A stretch of DNA of 32,363 bases from Terriglobia bacterium (lineage in GTDB: Bacteria; Acidobacteriota; Terriglobia; UBA7540), in contig JAIQGB010000001.1 in the NCBI GenBank assembly GCA_020072905.1, forward strand, positions 1 to 32,363, given 5' to 3'. This document shows, piece by piece, positions 2,397-23,757 of the stretch. Positions within the stretch are counted from its first letter, which is position 1; every line of letters starts with the position of its first letter. The notes beneath the pieces are model-generated. The model was given only the letters and a program-made list of their open reading frames with translations, searched no databases and was not told the origin of the DNA. A program made the translations under genes and the position numbers.

Positions 2397-4202
2397 TCAA
2401 TGTTGGTTGTCGTGGGACAACTCGCTCGCTAACCAGATTGTCTGGGCCAGATGAGGAGTCCATATCTCACACGAATGCCACGTACCCGGCTGCAAATCAG
2501 GGCGGTCTTCTTCATCACCTACGATCCCATTCATCACCGACCCGGGGATGGTGGGGAGTCGAGGTATGAATTCGGGTGCGATGTAGAGTGGTGGATTCTT
2601 GTACCCGACTCCGTTCATCATACAAACGTCAAAGGGGTTGAGGCCAAGAATCCAGTCCAGCATTCTTTGCGCGAGGTGTCTGTACTTCTCGGAGCCGAAT
2701 ATACGCCCCGCATAACACAGCATGATCCCAGTCCCTGCCAGATTCGAATTATTCCCCTGGTACATCACCTCACCTGCTGACGGAGTCGAACTGCCTTGAC
2801 GCCAGGGATTCCGAATGCTCATGAAATATCTATAGGTCGTCCCTTGGTAATTCCTCGATCCCTGGGGCATTTCCGCCTTGACCACACAGGGGACAATTCC
2901 GAAAGCGTTCAATCCTGCCATGGTCAGGAGGTATTCGTCGCAATAGAGTGCCAGCGCTCTTTCCCAGCGACCGACATCTGTTTCGGATCTGAGCGCCTCC
3001 ACAGCCTCACAGAAACCGATCATTCCAAGAGTTTCGATTCCAACATGCATGGCGGCCTTTGATCTGCTAGCGTCTTCGTAGAAGTACCCTTTCAGCATCT
3101 GGGGTGCCGCGCCCGTTTCCTGAAGGCCCGCAAATCGGTCGGCCATTTTGACGGCATAATCCAGGTAGTCATGATCGCCTGTTGCCCGATAAAGCCTCAG
3201 TCCGGCGGATGCTCCCGTCCCGAAATCCAGATAAGTCCGAGACTCCCTCTTCTTCACCCAATTGAAGCACCTCACAGCGGCGTCCAGCGAGCGCTTGGCG
3301 TAAGGTGCGTCCCAGTCCTTGTAGAGCAATGCCAATTGGGATTGGGCCGAAATAAACATGTGCTGCAGGTGAGGTTCGCCGGGCCGGGTCGCGGCTTTCC
3401 GGTCGTCAGCCGTTCCTCGGACGTTGTCTGTCCAGTGATTTCCCTCCTCAGGAGCATCGCCACCAATTCCATGGGAGTAGTAGTAACCTTCAGGATCCTG
3501 GAGTTTTAGGAAGTAGAGATTCCCCCATTTTACCTCTTCGAGAATTCTGGCCTTTAGCTGGTCGTCCCGGGCCTTCTCTGCGACGTGCAAGAGCCCAATC
3601 ATTCCCGTGAGCGTCGCATCAGACCACTTGAGGAGGTCACAGGCATCATGCCAGCCTCCAACGAGATCCAGGAACTGCCCATTGTCCAGACGAACGCCAT
3701 CGTCCAGGTGGCAGGGAGCATGGTAGCCCGTCGTACTGGGTCCGCATCTCTGGACCGCAAAGCACTCGATTCCTTTTTGGATCACCTCGCGGTAGTCGTC
3801 GCCGATGGTGAAAACATAGGAGGAAATAAAGTCATTTGAAGGCAAAGTATCCCTATACATATCCAGCGCGTACTTCCCTGGTCGCGTATATTCAGAAAAA
3901 TCACCCACATAATATCCGCCAAAATCTCCATGGAATTCCGCAAGTTCGCCGTGGAAGACGCGGTGGTCTCCGACAACGCTCAGATCGCGGAGGTAGAAAT
4001 CCGGCTTGATGGAATAGATGTTGCTCTCGACCAGAAACTTCTTGCTCCCGTGCGTTAGGTAGCCGACTTGGTTGGTCAGGATGTTGACCCGACAAACCAC
4101 CTCAGGGTGAGCCACGGCGGCCGCGGTTCGAGCTCCCTGGTTATGAAGTGCTAAGCCAGAGGCACCCACCTTCATCAAGAAGTTGCGTCGCGAATCTGCC
4201 AT
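2397..4202 (-). CDS. Glycoside hydrolase family 9 endoglucanase-like protein with N-terminal Ig-like domain and Tat-like signal
   Basis: 601 aa ORF. SRRNFLMKVGASGLAL Tat-like N-terminus; NILTNQVGYLTHGSKKFLVES (CelD N-terminal Ig-like start); GGWHDACDLLKWSDA (GH9 Asp motif region); WILGLNPFDVCMMNGVGYKNPP; C-terminal WHSCEIWTPHLAQTIWLAS (catalytic Glu region). Confidence 0.88.
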   Translation of the reverse strand: MADSRRNFLMKVGASGLALHNQGARTAAAVAHPEVVCRVNILTNQVGYLTHGSKKFLVESNIYSIKPDFYLRDLSVVGDHRVFHGELAEFHGDFGGYYVGDFSEYTRPGKYALDMYRDTLPSNDFISSYVFTIGDDYREVIQKGIECFAVQRCGPSTTGYHAPCHLDDGVRLDNGQFLDLVGGWHDACDLLKWSDATLTGMIGLLHVAEKARDDQLKARILEEVKWGNLYFLKLQDPEGYYYSHGIGGDAPEEGNHWTDNVRGTADDRKAATRPGEPHLQHMFISAQSQLALLYKDWDAPYAKRSLDAAVRCFNWVKKRESRTYLDFGTGASAGLRLYRATGDHDYLDYAVKMADRFAGLQETGAAPQMLKGYFYEDASRSKAAMHVGIETLGMIGFCEAVEALRSETDVGRWERALALYCDEYLLTMAGLNAFGIVPCVVKAEMPQGSRNYQGTTYRYFMSIRNPWRQGSSTPSAGEVMYQGNNSNLAGTGIMLCYAGRIFGSEKYRHLAQRMLDWILGLNPFDVCMMNGVGYKNPPLYIAPEFIPRLPTIPGSVMNGIVGDEEDRPDLQPGTWHSCEIWTPHLAQTIWLASELSHDNQH

Positions 4203-5211: not shown

Positions 5212-6273
5212 TTGAGACTAAGTTCGGGATCGTTGCTCTTGCTTCTGGTCTATCCAATCATAGGTTGGCCTCAGGGAGGACGTCTCCCGCAACCGACGCT
5301 CTGGCCGCAAGACCGGACCGCGGCCATTTCTCTTACTTTTGACGACGCGATGGAAACCCAGCTTGACAATGCCGGTCCAGTTCTCAAAAACCATGACCTG
5401 CGAGGAACTTTCTTTGTCATTACGGGGCCTTCGAGCACCTGGCGAATGCGCCCTCGCGATTGGCAGCAGTTGGCAGCGGGCGGAAATGAGATTGGTAGCC
5501 ACACGGTGAACCATCCGTGCTTGCTCGCGGAAATCGAACCCCACTCTCAGGACTACAGCCCGGAAATGATGCACAAGGAGCTGCGGGAAAGCGCCAGAGA
5601 GATTCTGGCGAGACTGGGAACTCAGCGGGGCCTAACGTTTGCTTACCCCTGCGGGAATATGAGTTTCGGGCCTCCGACGGCGCAGGCTCGTAACCAAGCA
5701 CTTTACATCGACTACGTGGCGGAGTCCTACTTTGCCGCGCGCGGGTACGGCGGCGAAGGAGAAGTGAATCCGGAAGAGTTAAACATCCTCACTGTGCCCG
5801 ATTTGGGTTCGACTGCGGGGAAACCCTTTCCCGACCTCTTGGCGATGATGCAGCCGGCAGTTCGAGGACACCGGTGGGGAATTTTCGCCATCCACGGCGT
5901 GGGCGGCGAGTGGCTCTCCGTAAGCACAGAAGTCCTGGACGAGCTCGCGGCCTATCTGCAACACCACACGGAAATCTGGACCGCTCCTTTCGGGGATGTC
6001 ATCCGCTATATTCAGGAGAGCAAGGCGCTGGGGATCCGAGCAACGGGACATGGGAACCAGCAGGCGCAATTCTCGTTGGACTGGCCCCTTGACCCGAAGG
6101 TCTTCGACTTGCCGCTCACGCTCAAGTGGCAGTTGCCACCGGGCTGGACAGCGTGTCAGGCGGAAGCGGATGGCCGGCCTCTGACCTGCACAATCCTGCC
6201 AAAAACGAACCAGAAAACTATACTTGTTGATGTTCCTCCACAAACAAAGAGTCTCCAGTTCACATCAAAGTGA
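5212..6273 (+). CDS. Polysaccharide deacetylase (NodB/CE4 family), secreted
   Basis: 353 aa; TTG start preceded by AGGAGGAGG (5194-5202); signal-peptide-like N-terminus; AISLTFDDAMETQLDNAGPVL (TFDD) and EIGSHTVNHPC (HxxxH) metal motifs. Confidence 0.92.
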   Translation: MRLSSGSLLLLLVYPIIGWPQGGRLPQPTLWPQDRTAAISLTFDDAMETQLDNAGPVLKNHDLRGTFFVITGPSSTWRMRPRDWQQLAAGGNEIGSHTVNHPCLLAEIEPHSQDYSPEMMHKELRESAREILARLGTQRGLTFAYPCGNMSFGPPTAQARNQALYIDYVAESYFAARGYGGEGEVNPEELNILTVPDLGSTAGKPFPDLLAMMQPAVRGHRWGIFAIHGVGGEWLSVSTEVLDELAAYLQHHTEIWTAPFGDVIRYIQESKALGIRATGHGNQQAQFSLDWPLDPKVFDLPLTLKWQLPPGWTACQAEADGRPLTCTILPKTNQKTILVDVPPQTKSLQFTSK

Positions 6274-6436
6274 GGACAGAGGTAATTAGCGCAACGGCGC
6301 GGAGTTCTTTCCGGGAGCAACGATGGAAATCGGTGTCTCCCGGCCGCCGGTTGGGGTCTGAAGACCAAGGGGACCACCACGCCCAGCGGGGTCTTCTGAA
6401 CAGTTGACTTGATCGCCGTGGTGGCGGAGGCAAAAA

Positions 6437-7903
6437 GTGAAGACGCGAGACGGAAGGCAAGGCGCACAGGGAACCGGAGCGAGGCTCGGGTCATCAGTTG
6501 ACCGGCGAGAGTTCCTGACCGCGGCAACGGGCGTAGCGTCTGCGATGCTGCTCGCAGGGAACGAGGCGAAGTCCTCTCCGGGCATGGTCAAGCCGGGCAC
6601 CGATCCTGGCGGGCCGGGGCAAGGCAGCCGGCTTGCCCTGCGAGGCGGGAGCCCCGTGCGCAGGACAAAACTCGCAGCGAACTTTCCGGGTCCGCTTTAT
6701 TATGATGAGGATGAACAGCGGGAATTACTGGATGTGCTCAAGCGTCGGGCCCCGTTCCGGTGGTACGGGGTTGGCCCGAAAGGCGGGATACCGCACCAGT
6801 GCGATGACTTTGAGAAAGAATTTGCAGCCCGTCAGAACACCCGATTCTGCGTAGCGGTTACATCTGGGACGATGGCTCTTTGCACGGCGTTGGCGGCTCT
6901 CGGGGTCGGGCCGGGGGACGAAGTGATTCTCCCTGCCTGGACCTGGTACTCCTGCTACAACGCCATTGTAGCGGCGGGGGCGACGCCGGTCTTCGCCGAG
7001 ATTGACGATTCGTTGGACATCGATCCCAACGATATCGAGCGGCACGTCACTCCACACACCAAGGTGATCATGGTCGTGCACATTTTGGGCGAGCCGGCGA
7101 ACATGGATCCTATTCTGGAGATTGCCCGGCGACACAAACTCAAGGTGCTCGAAGACTGTGCCCAGAGTGTGGGCGCCACGTACCGGGGCGCTCCCGTCGG
7201 CTCGATGGGCAATTGCGGCATCTACAGCTTCCAAGAATGTAAGACGATCACGGCAGGCGAAGGCGGGTCCGTGGTCACCAAGGATCCCGTCATCTTCGAG
7301 CGCGCGTCGCGCTTCCACGACCTGGGAGATCTGCGCGACGGCCACGCCCAAAGGTTGGGGCAACCGCCGCACTTTCCGCAGTTTCTGGGTGGCCAGTTTC
7401 GCATGAGTGAGTTCACCGGCGCTGTCCTGCGCGCGCAATTGCGCAAGCTGGATCGCATCGTCGCCGACTTCCGATCACGGGCGACGCGAGTGATGGAGGG
7501 CATTCAGGACCTGCCCGGGATTCGCTTTCGCCGCAGCAATGATCCGCAAGGCGCCATTCGAAACTCCATTTACTTCCAGACACTGGACAAGGCGCACCGG
7601 GATCTTATGATTGCGGCATTGGAGGCGGAAAACGTTCCTGCCATGCAGATGGAGGGGTCGGTGATTCTGCCGATTGTGCCTTATGTCGAGCAGAAACAGA
7701 ATCCCAATATGGATACCAACTGGCCCTCTTTTTCGACACCGGAGAGCAAGGCACTTCGCTACGGGGCTGCCTGCTGTCCACGCACACTGGAGCTTTACGA
7801 TCGCTTTGTGGGCATCCCAATGGATCCGCAGTATTCCGACCAGGACGTTGCGGACATCATAGCGGCAGTCCGGAAATTGTATCCGGCGATTCTGCAGGCT
7901 TAA
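6437..7903 (+). CDS. DegT/DnrJ/EryC1/StrS family PLP-dependent aminotransferase with Tat-like signal
   Basis: 488 aa; GTG start with GGAGG at 6426-6430; DRREFLTAATGVASAMLLAG; TSGTMALCTALAALGVGPGDEVILPAWTWYSCYNAI; LEDCAQSVGA; PLP-lysine motif YSFQECKTITAGEGGSVVT. Confidence 0.92.
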   Translation: MKTRDGRQGAQGTGARLGSSVDRREFLTAATGVASAMLLAGNEAKSSPGMVKPGTDPGGPGQGSRLALRGGSPVRRTKLAANFPGPLYYDEDEQRELLDVLKRRAPFRWYGVGPKGGIPHQCDDFEKEFAARQNTRFCVAVTSGTMALCTALAALGVGPGDEVILPAWTWYSCYNAIVAAGATPVFAEIDDSLDIDPNDIERHVTPHTKVIMVVHILGEPANMDPILEIARRHKLKVLEDCAQSVGATYRGAPVGSMGNCGIYSFQECKTITAGEGGSVVTKDPVIFERASRFHDLGDLRDGHAQRLGQPPHFPQFLGGQFRMSEFTGAVLRAQLRKLDRIVADFRSRATRVMEGIQDLPGIRFRRSNDPQGAIRNSIYFQTLDKAHRDLMIAALEAENVPAMQMEGSVILPIVPYVEQKQNPNMDTNWPSFSTPESKALRYGAACCPRTLELYDRFVGIPMDPQYSDQDVADIIAAVRKLYPAILQA

Positions 7904-8095: not shown

Positions 8096-9457
8096 TCAAA
8101 AATCCAGCAGTAGGCCCGTCCGGTCCGGCCGTTTGGAGGCGCGCACGAGGAATACAAAAACCGCGGTCGCGACACAAGGAATCACCGACGCCGCAATCAC
8201 GATGGGCTGGAACGTGAAGCGGTCGCTGATGCGTCCGATCAAGTATGTGGAGGCCAGTGTTCCGATGCCGGCACCTGCTCCTCCCAGTCCGCTGACCGAG
8301 GCCACGGCGCGGGTCTGGAAAGCGTCGGCCGGCAACGAGAGAAACATGGTCGAACAGGCCGAGTAGGCGAAGGAGGCGTAAGCGAAAAGGCCGACGAGCA
8401 GCGCGTAGCTCGAGGTGAACGCTGCTCCGAGAAGGACGAGCATGCTCGGCCCGAAAATGAGCAGGACGCGACGCCGCGAGCGGCCCACAGGCCAACCCCG
8501 AGAAATCCAGAAACTCGAGAGAGCACCTCCGAAAAAGTTTCCCAAATCCGCCGCCAGGAAAGGTAGCCAGAACCCCAGGATGCTCTTCTCAAGCTGAAAG
8601 CCTTTGCTCACCAGATAAATCGCAAACCACTCCGACATGAGATACCAGTAAGGGTCGAGGAGGAAGCGTCCCATGACAATCCCCCAAGTTTGGCGGTATC
8701 GCAGCAACCGGCCCCAGCTGACGGAGGGCGCCGCTCCCGAAGTTGCGATGGAAGGCGCGCGTCCTTGTTGAATATAGGCAAGCTCTTGGGCAGAAAGACG
8801 CGGGTGACTTTCGGGCGAATGGTAAATGGATCGCCAAACGAGGAGCCACAAGAAACCCAGGGAGCCGGTGATCAGGAATACGAGGCGCCAACTGTGGAAA
8901 GCCCGGTAAGCGAAAAGCACAATAAACGGGGCGAGGGCGCCGCCCACTGAGGAGCCGCTGTCAAACAAGGCTACCGCCCAGCCGCGCTCTTTGACGGGAA
9001 ACCATTCGGAGACGGCCTTTGTTGCTCCCGGCCAGTTGGGCCCCTCGCCGACACCCAGCAGAAATCGAAATACGCCGAAGCTCGCCAGGCCCCGGGCGGT
9101 GGAAGTCAGCGCCGCCACCAGCGAATAGAACGCCACCGTGAACGAGAGCCCCTTGCGAGTCCCCAACCAGTCCAAAATCCGCCCGCCTACCGCCTGCATG
9201 ATGGTATAGGCAACGCGGAAAGCAATAAGGATCATGGCGAAGTCGGTGTTGGTCCAACCATGCTCGATCTTCAAGATGGGTGCCAGCGCGTTCAAGGATT
9301 GCCGATCGATGAAGTTGATTACGGTGGAGGCAAAGAGGACCGCCCCGATCCACCAGCGAAGCCGTCGGATCGGCCGTAACTGTCGCTTGCCAGTTTCGTC
9401 TCGAGGACGATTCATTGGACTTGGTGGCAACGGGAATTTCCCGGACTCAGGTTTCAA
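8096..9457 (-). CDS. MFS transporter, anion:cation symporter (ExuT/hexuronate-like) family
   Basis: 453 aa, multiple hydrophobic TM segments; INFIDRQSLNALAPILK, FRFLLGVGEGPNWPGATKAVSEWFP, typical of ACS/ExuT-like MFS. Start may be the internal Met at 9415. Confidence 0.88.
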   Translation of the reverse strand: MKPESGKFPLPPSPMNRPRDETGKRQLRPIRRLRWWIGAVLFASTVINFIDRQSLNALAPILKIEHGWTNTDFAMILIAFRVAYTIMQAVGGRILDWLGTRKGLSFTVAFYSLVAALTSTARGLASFGVFRFLLGVGEGPNWPGATKAVSEWFPVKERGWAVALFDSGSSVGGALAPFIVLFAYRAFHSWRLVFLITGSLGFLWLLVWRSIYHSPESHPRLSAQELAYIQQGRAPSIATSGAAPSVSWGRLLRYRQTWGIVMGRFLLDPYWYLMSEWFAIYLVSKGFQLEKSILGFWLPFLAADLGNFFGGALSSFWISRGWPVGRSRRRVLLIFGPSMLVLLGAAFTSSYALLVGLFAYASFAYSACSTMFLSLPADAFQTRAVASVSGLGGAGAGIGTLASTYLIGRISDRFTFQPIVIAASVIPCVATAVFVFLVRASKRPDRTGLLLDF

Positions 9458-11017: not shown

Positions 11018-12337
11018 TCAAGCCGCCGCTATCGAAGTTCTGGCGAGGAGCAGCGCGGACAATACTTTGTCGAAAGCCCGAATGATATCATCTTCGTCCT
11101 TTTCGGACAGGCAGGAGGGAACCGCGATCAGCATGCTGCGCTCGAACAGGCTGTCCGCCACGAGACATGCCCCTTTATGGTAATCCCTCGCGAGCCCCGC
11201 ATTTTCCGCAAGGGTCCAAGGGAATCCACGGCCATCCACACTGGTTTGATTGACGAGACTGGGGATGTTGTAATAGAGATGAAGCCCCCAATCGGTCATC
11301 AGGATATTCGAGATTCCTTGGGAGGAGGTCACAATCCCCTCGGCTCGGAGAGCCAAGTTGATCTTTTTGGCTGTCTCCGCGTCGTGGTAAGTGATGATGA
11401 GGAAGGAGCCTGTATCACCCTTCTTATCGATAATCTTCCTCAGTTGAACTTGCGGGAATTTCTCAAGTGCTGTCCGAATCCTGTACTTGCTTGCGTGCAT
11501 GCGCTCGATGATGCTGGGAAGTTTTTTCAACTGGACCCGTAGGATGGCAGCACGCACTTCGTCAAGGCGATACCCTTTGCCCCACAGGCAGAGGTCGGGG
11601 TCATTCATAATCAGCCGACCGTTCTGGTCGCGCGCGAATCCGAGATCGTGGACGGCAAATGCCCGGCGATAGAGACGCGCATCATTGGTCACGACGCATC
11701 CTCCCTCTCCCGCCGTAATATTCTTGTTCATCTGAAAGCTAAAGATGCCCATGTCCCCAAAGGTGCCCACCTTCTGTCCACCCACACTTCCGCCGTTGCA
11801 TTGTGCGCAGTCTTCGAGAAGGAACAATCTTTGCTTACGTGCGATCTTCAGAACCTCTTTGACGTTTCCTGGAGCTCCACTCATGTGCACAAGGATGATG
11901 CCGCGAGTTTTCGGTGTAATGCACTTCTCGACTTCTGCGGGATTCAAACAAAATGTATCGTCGATATCCGCTAGGACTGGAATCGCCCCCTGGTTGACCA
12001 CGGCAGCTGCCACGGAAACCCAAGAGTATGCAGGAACAATGATCTCCTGCCCGGGCCCCACGCCCAACGCCGAAAGGGCCACCTGGAGGGCGCCGGTTCC
12101 GCTGCTAACCGCAATGGTGTACTTCACGCGGAAGAAACGTGCGAGTTCAGCTTCCAGTTTTTCCACTTCTTTCTGCAGCGCAATACCGTAGTAGCGAAAC
12201 AGCGAACGGCTTCTGAGCACGCGAACCGCGGCGTCTACTTCCCTCTGGTCCATGTGGTGAATCCCAGGAAACTCCAAAGGGAGGGGTTTAGTTCTGACTG
12301 GTTTTCCACCAGCAATCGCCAATCTACTCCGGTTCAT
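11018..12337 (-). CDS. DegT/DnrJ/EryC1/StrS family PLP-dependent aminotransferase, apparently cytoplasmic
   Basis: Start reassigned from 12367 to ATG at 12337 (MNRSRLAIAGGKPVRTKPLP) behind GGAGG. SSGTGALQVALSALGVGPGQEIIVPAYSWVSVA; LEDCAQCNGG; PLP-lysine motif FSFQMNKNITAGEGGCVVT. Confidence 0.93.
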   Translation of the reverse strand: MNRSRLAIAGGKPVRTKPLPLEFPGIHHMDQREVDAAVRVLRSRSLFRYYGIALQKEVEKLEAELARFFRVKYTIAVSSGTGALQVALSALGVGPGQEIIVPAYSWVSVAAAVVNQGAIPVLADIDDTFCLNPAEVEKCITPKTRGIILVHMSGAPGNVKEVLKIARKQRLFLLEDCAQCNGGSVGGQKVGTFGDMGIFSFQMNKNITAGEGGCVVTNDARLYRRAFAVHDLGFARDQNGRLIMNDPDLCLWGKGYRLDEVRAAILRVQLKKLPSIIERMHASKYRIRTALEKFPQVQLRKIIDKKGDTGSFLIITYHDAETAKKINLALRAEGIVTSSQGISNILMTDWGLHLYYNIPSLVNQTSVDGRGFPWTLAENAGLARDYHKGACLVADSLFERSMLIAVPSCLSEKDEDDIIRAFDKVLSALLLARTSIAAA

Positions 12338-13129
12338 TTGATACCTCCGCGAGAGTAAGGTAAGCATCGGCTGAAAAAGAGCCTCTGGTGGCCGCGAAAA
12401 CGATCCAAATTCGGCACAGCTCTCTCGGTCCAGAACCCAACTTCAAGTCGAGCCGCCTCCGGCAAGCTGACTTGGGCCGAGATAAACAGACCATTCGCCG
12501 CCTAACTGTAAGAACAGAGCACCGCCGTTTGATAATGCGACCCCCAGCACTAGGGTTGTTGAAATAATGGCAGATCGTGGGATTCTCATGGGTCAACAAG
12601 GAACAGGAGGATGCTTGCGCAGCGTCGAACGCCACACGACTGGCTGCCGAACAGGATCCGGTTTCTTGCTTCTGTCTCCGACGTGGCATAGTAGACCCAA
12701 TTTCTCCCGCTATTCCTAAGGCAGTCAAGTGCACACGTCGCACCCGGTCCATTGGCCCACAACCTTCGTCGAGTCGCGCGCACGTAGGAAACTGGTACTC
12801 TAAGGTCCCTACGCTCCGCGCTCTTGGCAAACCTTACCATCCTCCCGATTCTTTTCTGCTTGCTGTCCTAGTTGCGACAAGCTCCGCCCCCCCTGTTTTG
12901 GAAGTCTGTCATGGGCGGTTAGTGGTCTCCCACCACGAGTGCAGACGAGAATTTCAGGTAGCTTCAATTTAGCATTAGGGTCATTGAAGCTCACCGAAAG
13001 GGTTGTGCTGACAAGCCGACCTTATACCACACAAAAGAGGTTCTTTCGAGAATTTAATTCAACCTGAGCATTATATTGCGGAAAAATGGCGTAAATTTTG
13101 GAGTGTTAGGTGTTTCACAGAAAAAATAC

Positions 13130-20549: not shown

Positions 20550-21572
20550 ATGTGCAACCTAATCTTCTTTCTTTTTGCCTCCTTCCGTTCCTGGTTCCAA
20601 AGCCGCCTCCGACTGCAAGCAGAGATCGTCGCCTTGCGCCAGCAGGTCATGGTCCTTCGACGGTCTCAAAGAGGATGTGTCCGCCTCCGTGCCACCGATC
20701 GTGTGTTCTGGGTGTGGCTGTGGTCGGGTTGGCGCTCGACGCTGGCAATCGTCAAACCGGAGACCGTAATTTCCCGGCATCGCAAAGGATTTCGTCTGTA
20801 TTGGACCTGGAAAAGTGGGTGCGGTATGCCCGGCAGGCCGGAGGTGTCTCAGGAAGCTCGAGACCTCATTCGGAAGGTGAGTATGGCGAATCCCTTCTGG
20901 GGAACTCCTCGTATCCATGGTGAGCTCCTCAAGCTCGGCATCGAGGTGTCGCAAGCGACGGTGGCCAAGTACATGGTTCGCCAACGCAAACCGCCCTCTC
21001 AGATGTGGCGCGCCCTCCTCAGTAATCATGTGAATAACTTGGTCTCCACTGATTTCTTCATTGTCCCCACTATCAGTTTTCGAGTCCTGTTTGTCTTCAT
21101 CGTTCTGGGCCATCAGCGGCGCCGGCTGCTTCATTTCAACGTAACCTCCCATCCCACTGCGGAATGGACGGCACAACAAATTGCCGAGGCCTTCCCGTGG
21201 GACAGTGCTCCACGATATCTGCTGCATGACCGCGATTCGATCTATGGAGATTCCTTTCGTCAAAGAGTGCGAGGCATGGGTACGCGTGAAGTCCTGACGG
21301 CACCGCGATCGCCTTGGCAAAATCCGTACGCGGAACGATTGATTGGATCTGTCAGGCGGGAGTGCCTGGACCACGTCGTCGTCCGGAATGAGACTGGTCT
21401 ACGACGGACTCTCAGCTCGTATTTCAACTACTATCTGAAGGCGCGCGCACATCTGGCATTGGGTAAGGACGCGCCTGAACCGCGAGCGATTCAACCGCCG
21501 AAACTCGGAGCCGTGGTCGAGATCCCGGAAGTCGGAGGCCTCCATCACCGTTACGAGCGGCGAGCCGCTTGA
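20550..21572 (+). mobile_element. DDE integrase-core transposase (single-ORF insertion sequence; ends not defined)
   Basis: 340 aa: NPFWGTPRIHGELLKLGIEVSQATVAKYMVRQRKPPSQMWRALLSNHV; STDFFIVPTISFRVLFVFIVLGHQRRRLLHFNVT; LLHDRDSIYGDSFRQRV; APRSPWQNPYAERLIGSVRRECLDHVVV (rve core with acidic residues retained); GGLHHRYERRAA terminus. Confidence 0.9.
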
Positions 21573-22614: not shown

Positions 22615-22785
22615 GTCTGCATCCTAACACGCCCGTGCGTTGACCGCAGGCGTTCGGGGTTCTCCCGGGGGAGACGAGATGTCCGCAGGCGGTGATGGCG
22701 GCTGGGCATTGCACCTCGGCGGATGAGTCGGTATAGTTATCCGGCCCAAAGTTTCGGATCTTCCCGGTAAGGAGGAATCATTCCC

Positions 22786-23709
22786 ATGAGTTCGATCAAC
22801 CGAAGAGATTTCCTGCGCAAGAGTGCCGCGGGTTTGGCCTCGCTCCCGGCGTTGGCAGCGATTTCCTGCTCGACGACGCCGGAGACCTCCACCGCGCCCG
22901 TGCAACCGGCGGCGCCCACGGGCCCGCCCTACGGCATTCCTGTGGGACTGCAGCTTTACACCGTGCGCGCCGAGTGTGAGAAGGATTTTGAGGGCACGTT
23001 GAAGCAGATCGCTGCGATCGGCTACAAGAACGTGGAAGTCTACGACTTCTACGGAAAGACAGCGGCGGATGTGAAGAAGCTCCTGGACGACAACGGGCTC
23101 AAGGCCCCCAGCGGCCACTGGCTTTTGCCCAAGCTCCAAAAGAGCCTGCCAAAAACCATCGAGGACGCCAAAACACTGGGCTGCGAATACATTGTCATGC
23201 CGATCTTTGATCCGCCGGAACGCAAAACCTTCGCCCAGTTCAAGCGCCACGCGGAGTTCTTCAACAAGGTTGGCGAGCAGTGCAAAAAGGAGGGCCTGTC
23301 GTTCTGCTATCACGACCACAATTACGAGTTCCAGAAGCACGACGATTCGACGATCTTCGACTACCTGCTCTCGGCGTTCGACCCGCAACTGGTGAACATC
23401 GAGATGGACTGCTTTTGGGTCACCCACGCGGGCTCTGATCCGGTGGCCTACATGGAGAAGTATCCGGGGCGCTTCCCGCTCTTGCACATCAAGGACCTCA
23501 AGGCGGGCAACGAGCCGACGACCACGCTGGATGCCAAGATGGGCCTGTTCGCGGAAGTCGGGCACGGCACGATCGACTGGAAGCGCATTTTCGCTGCGGC
23601 CCCCAAGGGGGGGCTGAAGTACTACTTTGTTGAGCAGGACTTCTGCGAGCGGCCGCCGCTTGAGTCCATCAAGATGAGCTACGACTATCTGAAGAGTCTG
23701 ACAGTGTGA
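22786..23709 (+). CDS. Sugar phosphate isomerase/epimerase-like TIM-barrel protein with Tat/lipoprotein-like signal
   Basis: 307 aa; AAGGAGG SD upstream; NRRDFLRKSAAGLASLPALAAISC signal; YGIPVGLQLYTVRAECEKDFEGTLKQIAAIGYKNVEVYDFYG; FCYHDHNYEF; HIKDLKAG; VGHGTIDWKRIF; YYFVEQD. Confidence 0.92.
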   Translation: MSSINRRDFLRKSAAGLASLPALAAISCSTTPETSTAPVQPAAPTGPPYGIPVGLQLYTVRAECEKDFEGTLKQIAAIGYKNVEVYDFYGKTAADVKKLLDDNGLKAPSGHWLLPKLQKSLPKTIEDAKTLGCEYIVMPIFDPPERKTFAQFKRHAEFFNKVGEQCKKEGLSFCYHDHNYEFQKHDDSTIFDYLLSAFDPQLVNIEMDCFWVTHAGSDPVAYMEKYPGRFPLLHIKDLKAGNEPTTTLDAKMGLFAEVGHGTIDWKRIFAAAPKGGLKYYFVEQDFCERPPLESIKMSYDYLKSLTV

Positions 23710-23715
23710 AGACGG

Positions 23716-23757
23716 AAGAAAGGAGTCAGGAGACAAGAGTCAGTAGAAAGAAGGAGG
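23716..23757. repeat. 7-bp-period degenerate tandem repeat, left arm
   Basis: AAGAAAG GAGTCAG GAGACAA GAGTCAG TAGAAAG AAGGAGG. Confidence 0.65.

Follow-up and report, generated by a model that had tools for sequence, protein, structure and literature searches.

Predicted Tat export of a DegT-family aminotransferase from an acidobacterial glycan-use locus, and its conservation in three phyla

Introduction

Sugar transamination is treated as a cytoplasmic activity, and mostly as nucleotide-sugar chemistry. ArnB, WecE, and PseC share their Pfam family, fold and catalytic residues with the protein considered here, but differ from it as cytoplasmic enzymes that act on NDP-sugars. The gene for that protein lies at 6437-7903 of a 32,363-nucleotide stretch of DNA from a soil bacterium (Terriglobia bacterium, contig JAIQGB010000001.1), the whole of which is referred to as the window. 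Its best structural match is KdnA, the 8-amino-3,8-dideoxy-D-manno-octulosonate transaminase of Shewanella oneidensis (5k8b). KdnA has the same PLP site and its substrate is a sugar acid without a nucleotide. However, the matched KdnA chain has no export signal, is only about 31% identical and falls on a separate tree branch, and its substrate should not be transferred to the window enzyme by assumption.

Aminotransferases can also work in partnership with a dehydrogenase. GenD2 and GenS2 deaminate kanamycin B and, together with GenN, convert gentamicin A2 (PMC4340712). The likeness here is that a PLP aminotransferase and an oxidoreductase act on an intact glycoside, with both amination and deamination in vitro (PMC4340712). 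The differences are that this pair serves antibiotic biosynthesis and has no reported export signal, and the comparison is one of biochemistry, not sequence. Another pair, NtdA and NtdC, is cytoplasmic and has no known signal. The DegT-like NtdA, from the kanosamine pathway of Bacillus subtilis, pairs with the sugar 3-dehydrogenase NtdC on a non-nucleotide sugar, in an analogous oxidation and transamination of glucose-6-phosphate (PMC8788734). This pair differs from the window enzyme, which matches NtdA (4k2b) at E 4.6e-30, in using a sugar-phosphate substrate.

PvdN of Pseudomonas aeruginosa acts on pyoverdine. Two aminotransferases of this species, PvdN and PA2531, have experimentally validated Tat signals; they resemble the window enzyme in this respect, and neither is called a DegT-family enzyme in that study (PMC6085387). 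Tat export of other aminotransferases (PvdN and PA2531) is already known, then, and so are dehydrogenase-aminotransferase pairs that act on intact glycosides. A Tat-exported DegT enzyme was not found in the open-access literature searched. What is new here is the gene order DegT, Tat-signal Gfo/Idh/MocA, RidA in five planctomycete loci, and an exported Ceramidase_alk neighbor in about 10 others.

The Window Locus

The open reading frame scores 277 bits with PF01041 (E 2.9e-82; curated cut-off 19.8), and contains the motifs DRREFLTAATGVASAMLLAG, LEDCAQ, and QECKTITAGEGG. This bears out the initial annotation, which had quoted these motifs and assigned the gene to the DegT-family PLP aminotransferases. 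The same annotation had placed the gene in a glycan-degradation locus, and the surroundings agree: a GH3 gene that runs off the left edge, a Tat-signal GH9, a CE4, an MFS transporter, a GH30, a second DegT gene without a signal and a TonB-type receptor. The features closest to the gene are as follows.

5212-6273, plus strand: secreted CE4 polysaccharide deacetylase, directly upstream (PF01522, 8.2e-19)
6426-6430, plus strand: GGAGG ribosome-binding site, read from the sequence, six bases before the GTG at 6437
6437-7903, plus strand: DegT/DnrJ/EryC1-family PLP aminotransferase with predicted Tat signal (488 aa, GTG start; PF01041 277 bits; AF2 pLDDT 91; best fold match KdnA, 5k8b)
8096-9457, minus strand: MFS sugar-acid-type transporter (PF07690; TIGR00893 match below its cut-off)
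11018-12367, minus strand: second DegT aminotransferase, signal-less, placed in clade C by the tree (PF01041 263 bits)

The GH9 glycosidase (2397-4202, minus strand) has a Tat-like signal of its own (DSRRNFLMKVGASGLAL) in place of the usual Sec signal. Further along, at 22786-23709 (plus strand), is a xylose-isomerase-like TIM barrel (PF01261) with a Tat signal that ends in a lipobox-like LAAISC; codon scores prefer this frame over a longer antisense ORF at 22624-23736. An integrase-core (rve_3) transposase-like ORF occupies 20550-21572 (plus strand) in an otherwise metabolic region.

Relatives and the Export Signal

Relatives were sought in 61 relatives, 396 genomes of the phylum, 392 Planctomycetota and GTDB contigs. 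The group that contains the window gene, clade A, has members at about 95 loci, most of them 45-66% identical, in Acidobacteriota (chiefly Bryobacterales and gp13), Planctomycetota, and Verrucomicrobiota. Judged from these sequences, the window gene is a member of a cross-phylum family and not a lone oddity. The clade is rare in genomes sampled evenly across a phylum (5/396 and 3/392 at strict thresholds).

The N-terminus, MKTRDGRQGAQGTGARLGSSVDRREFLTAATGVASAMLLAG, carries a twin-arginine motif together with a run of apolar, uncharged residues.

6503-6514, plus strand: twin-arginine motif R23-R24-E-F26 (RRxF); R23, R24, and F26 invariant in 69/69 clade-A rows
6512-6556, plus strand: signal h-region, residues 26-40, FLTAATGVASAMLLA; the N-terminal hydropathy maximum starts at residue 26 and the modeled helix spans 23-39

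In a 107-row alignment all 69 clade-A rows keep R23, R24, and F26, and the N-terminal positions around them vary. A conserved RRxF amid a diverged N-terminus is the sequence pattern of a selected export signal. A strict rule, requiring an RR-x-F-type motif and then a 12-residue uncharged apolar stretch, picks out 56 of the 69 clade-A members, against 0.07% of shuffled N-termini, none of 22 non-Tat relatives and none of 1090 internal windows. An RRxF signal is present in nearly every complete clade-A N-terminus, and many relatives start directly with M-x-RR-x-F-L. It is absent from the non-Tat sister groups and the cytoplasmic cousins, including the second DegT protein of the window. By eye, an AxA-type signal peptidase site is clear in many orthologues and weak in the window protein, whose c-region is atypical. 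This genome encodes TatC, its N-terminal and C-terminal parts each giving a partial match on a contig of its own. The Tat-like N-terminus pointed out in the initial annotation is well supported as a prediction by the invariant RR and F, and the absence from orthologues that might have undone it is not what the clade displays.

Could translation begin downstream of the twin arginines? The next in-frame ATG after them, at 6545, has no ribosome-binding site comparable to the GGAGG before the GTG. A similar element precedes the ATG of several orthologues. Because RRxF is conserved and a ribosome-binding site precedes the GTG, a downstream start was rejected.

A quick maximum-likelihood tree was built with the signal part removed. 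Tat-signal DegT proteins fall into three clades: A with 69 rows, B with 12 (about 32% identity), and D, from planctomycetes, with 4. One starred group, the order inside which is uncertain, unites KdnA, KdnA-like acidobacterial rows, the signal-less clade C and clade A. The Tat label needs three changes on this tree, at least two of them forced by starred branches. Therefore, export of DegT enzymes probably arose more than once, as far as can be read from a label count that cannot tell gains from losses. The clade-C protein at 11018-12367 is the probable cytoplasmic counterpart of the enzyme at 6437-7903.

Active Site and Fold

AF2 modeling from 12 sequences reached a pLDDT of 72; a model from 82 sequences, with a pLDDT of 91, took its place. 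In this model a signal helix (23-39) is followed by a low-confidence linker (41-60) and then by the enzyme from about residue 62.

6620-7900, plus strand: mature aminotransferase domain, residues 62-488; model confidence is high from about 62, where cytoplasmic homologues begin
7154-7156, plus strand: D240, in 69/69 clade A and in E. coli ArnB and WecE
7226-7228, plus strand: S264, in 69/69 clade A and in ArnB and WecE
7241-7243, plus strand: K269, Schiff-base lysine, in 69/69 clade A and at the position of the lysine in ArnB and WecE

D240 presumably pairs with the pyridine nitrogen of PLP, and S264 is presumably the serine at its phosphate. Q266 and E325 are also invariant throughout clade A, and the phosphate loop S143-G144-T145 aligns with ArnB and WecE, SGT being essentially invariant in the clade. 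Alignment with DegT family active sites thus supports a catalytically competent PLP site, as predicted from these residues.

The fold is that of the type-I PLP enzymes, and the best PDB matches listed are DegT-family aminotransferases. Foldseek ranks KdnA (5k8b) first, at E 1e-35 with a TM-score of 0.90 by target length and 31% identity, followed by Fic25, AHBA synthase and BtrR; most NDP-sugar enzymes rank lower. KdnA is also the leading match of the clade-A profile by a wide margin, at E 3.8e-85 over almost the whole of its length. Conversely, the NCBIfam equivalog models for NDP-sugar enzymes (ArnB, PseC, WecE, and LegC) score the window protein at 152-179 bits against cut-offs of 375-631, the best being 179.4 bits against a cut-off of 375.

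This bears on an argument in the initial annotation, namely that export would imply periplasmic transamination of free or glycan-linked sugars, or else a non-catalytic role. Export stands as a predicted and conserved property. However, the substrates of KdnA, BtrR, AHBA synthase and Fic25, judged from names and ligands, carry no nucleotide. Since the nearest characterized relatives do without nucleotide-linked substrates, export alone implies no new substrate chemistry.

Neighbors in Other Loci

Neighboring genes were identified with Pfam, with profiles built here and, for the GC-rich planctomycete loci, with a codon log-odds gene caller. The neighbors of clade-A genes vary greatly, and most loci lack a shared partner. 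One recurrent arrangement is the order clade-A DegT, Tat-signal Gfo/Idh/MocA, RidA in five planctomycete loci (L121, L142, L154, L201, and L202). The dehydrogenase has PF01408 with PF19051 and a Tat-type signal. The RidA/L-PSP gene is recognized by Pfam (PF01042) in L121, L142, and L154, and by a profile built here also in L201 and L202. A Gfo/Idh protein directly adjoins the clade-A gene in two Acidobacteriota loci as well (L100 and L158). One or two further Tat-DegT genes from other clades sit beside the clade-A gene in eight loci (L121, L132, L142, L150, L156, L157, L201, and L202). Three planctomycete operons (L142:4908-12449, L121:4240-13732, and L202:7234-13018) combine two or three Tat-DegT genes with a RidA-family gene and one for a Tat-signal Gfo/Idh/MocA protein.

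The other recurrent neighbor is Ceramidase_alk (PF04734), which adjoins about 10 other clade-A genes on the same strand, mostly in Acidobacteriota, although relatives carry about one such gene each on average. Gfo/Idh proteins are far from scarce, with 45-141 per genome in four planctomycete genomes. A crude binomial estimate gives P about 4e-17 for the ceramidase neighbors and 1e-3 for the Gfo/Idh neighbors; because the loci are non-independent and the background rates rough, these values serve as guides only. Among the proteins examined from the window's own genome (L174-L192) there are about 14 distinct Tat-signal Gfo/Idh/MocA proteins, several of them clustered on contig C214.

The partners have signals too. 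Those of the Gfo/Idh proteins, which bear a cofactor, are Tat-type, those of several ceramidase-like proteins are Sec-type, and those of RidA in L121 and L142 are lipoprotein- or Sec-type. This is what would be expected if all were to work outside the cytoplasm. Going by these predicted signals and gene orders, the recurrent partners of clade A are exported Gfo/Idh/MocA, RidA, and Ceramidase_alk proteins, not CE4. The CE4 gene of the window does lie next to the DegT gene on the same strand (PF01522), as the initial annotation stated. However, neighbor clustering did not reveal CE4 beside the orthologue in other clade-A loci, and a conserved partnership was rejected. An MFS homologue adjoins the orthologue in L048, L049, and L092, and the first two of these loci share with the window the trio of Tat-DegT, MFS and clade-C DegT. 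The conserved neighborhood of L040-L042 (a LytB gene and others) was set aside as a functional association, looking instead like synteny of near relatives.

Outside clade A, clade-B Tat-DegT genes adjoin Ceramidase_alk-like genes (PF04734) in L053, L054, L055, L057, and L059; we know of no description of this pairing. Four Tat-DegT genes lie in one acidobacterial locus (L086:4111-14596), together with a gene for a Tat-signal protein that matches no Pfam family; a Ceramidase_alk-like gene lies upstream.

What Might the Enzyme Do?

The explanation we favor, with a probability of roughly 0.6, is that the protein is a periplasmic aminotransferase, Tat-exported along with exported partners, that acts on free or glycoside-linked keto or amino sugars without a nucleotide. 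If these sequence-based predictions are right, a kind of amino transfer usually placed in the cytoplasm probably goes on in the periplasm. The enzyme would fold with its PLP cofactor in the cytoplasm, and the holo-enzyme would pass through the Tat pathway by means of its RRxFL signal, to be either cleaved or membrane-anchored in the periplasm. There it would move an amino group to or from the carbonyl of a non-nucleotide sugar, sugar acid or cyclitol, free or glycoside-linked. The reaction would presuppose a supply of glutamate or 2-oxoglutarate in the periplasm. Gfo/Idh/MocA dehydrogenases mostly act on sugars and cyclitols, and their Tat-exported members may supply or remove the keto group. 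RidA proteins hydrolyze reactive imines made by PLP enzymes, and in some relatives an exported RidA-family protein could deal with those that leak from the reaction. In others, an exported ceramidase-like amidase may strip an N-acyl group first. The direction might be either amination of a keto sugar or deamination of an amino sugar that a ceramidase-like or CE4 enzyme has first N-deacylated. In the window locus the neighboring MFS carrier probably imports the product during glycan use.

The conserved signal, active site, fold, and operon partners come from comparison, and from them we infer export itself, the substrate class, the direction, and the uptake. Because the Gfo/Idh-RidA operon is found in planctomycetes and not in the window locus, to ascribe its function to the window gene, at about 47-50% identity, is a step of inference.

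What if the substrate is not a sugar? An exported PLP aminotransferase might instead use an amino acid, a peptide-linked ketone or a long-chain amine freed by the ceramidase-like amidase. The structure of Fic25, second among the structural neighbors, holds an amino-acid-like adduct, and the recurrence of Ceramidase_alk beside clades A and B could point to a lipid or another amide. However, the operon partner in planctomycetes belongs to a dehydrogenase family with a known preference for sugars and cyclitols, the best match, KdnA, is a sugar-acid enzyme, and the window gene lies among glycoside hydrolases. A non-sugar substrate is therefore regarded as unlikely, although it is the strongest of the competing ideas.

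Two others fare considerably worse. A false signal or a downstream start would make this an ordinary cytoplasmic (nucleotide-)sugar aminotransferase, and the GTG start codon and the atypical c-region of the window signal lean in this direction. Yet RRxF is invariant in 69 clade members from three phyla, M-x-RR-x-F-L is the very start of many relatives, the partner genes look exported as well, and the NDP-sugar equivalog scores are far under their cut-offs, all of which leaves the idea very improbable. Just as hard to credit is the non-catalytic role that the initial annotation had offered as an alternative, here an exported protein that would bind PLP or a sugar or be sensory or structural. 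Roles of this sort have been proposed for some DegT-family members. However, the clade keeps K269, D240, and S264 in every row and the SGT phosphate loop in essentially all, and exported RidA proteins beside Tat-signal DegT genes argue for active PLP chemistry in that compartment. Given the invariant active site, a non-catalytic protein was not kept as the main reading.

Concluding Remarks

Beyond the favored periplasmic sugar aminotransferase there is a broader and more tentative proposal, one we consider rather less probable than its negation. It holds that Planctomycetota, Acidobacteriota, and Verrucomicrobiota might have a dedicated periplasmic keto/amino-sugar metabolism, in which Tat-exported Gfo/Idh/MocA dehydrogenases and up to three Tat-DegT enzymes, with an exported RidA imine deaminase as protection, would turn hydroxyl, keto, and amino groups of free sugars or whole glycans into one another. 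The compact operon of DegT, Gfo/Idh, and RidA makes the question testable with purified enzymes. For automated annotation, the family is a reason against labeling Tat-DegT genes as LPS or antibiotic-sugar biosynthesis. If the conserved exported branch is what it appears to be, bacteria could add or remove sugar amino groups outside the cytoplasm, which would bear on the degradation of amino-sugar polymers, on the modification of cell-surface glycans and possibly on the fate of aminoglycosides in soil.
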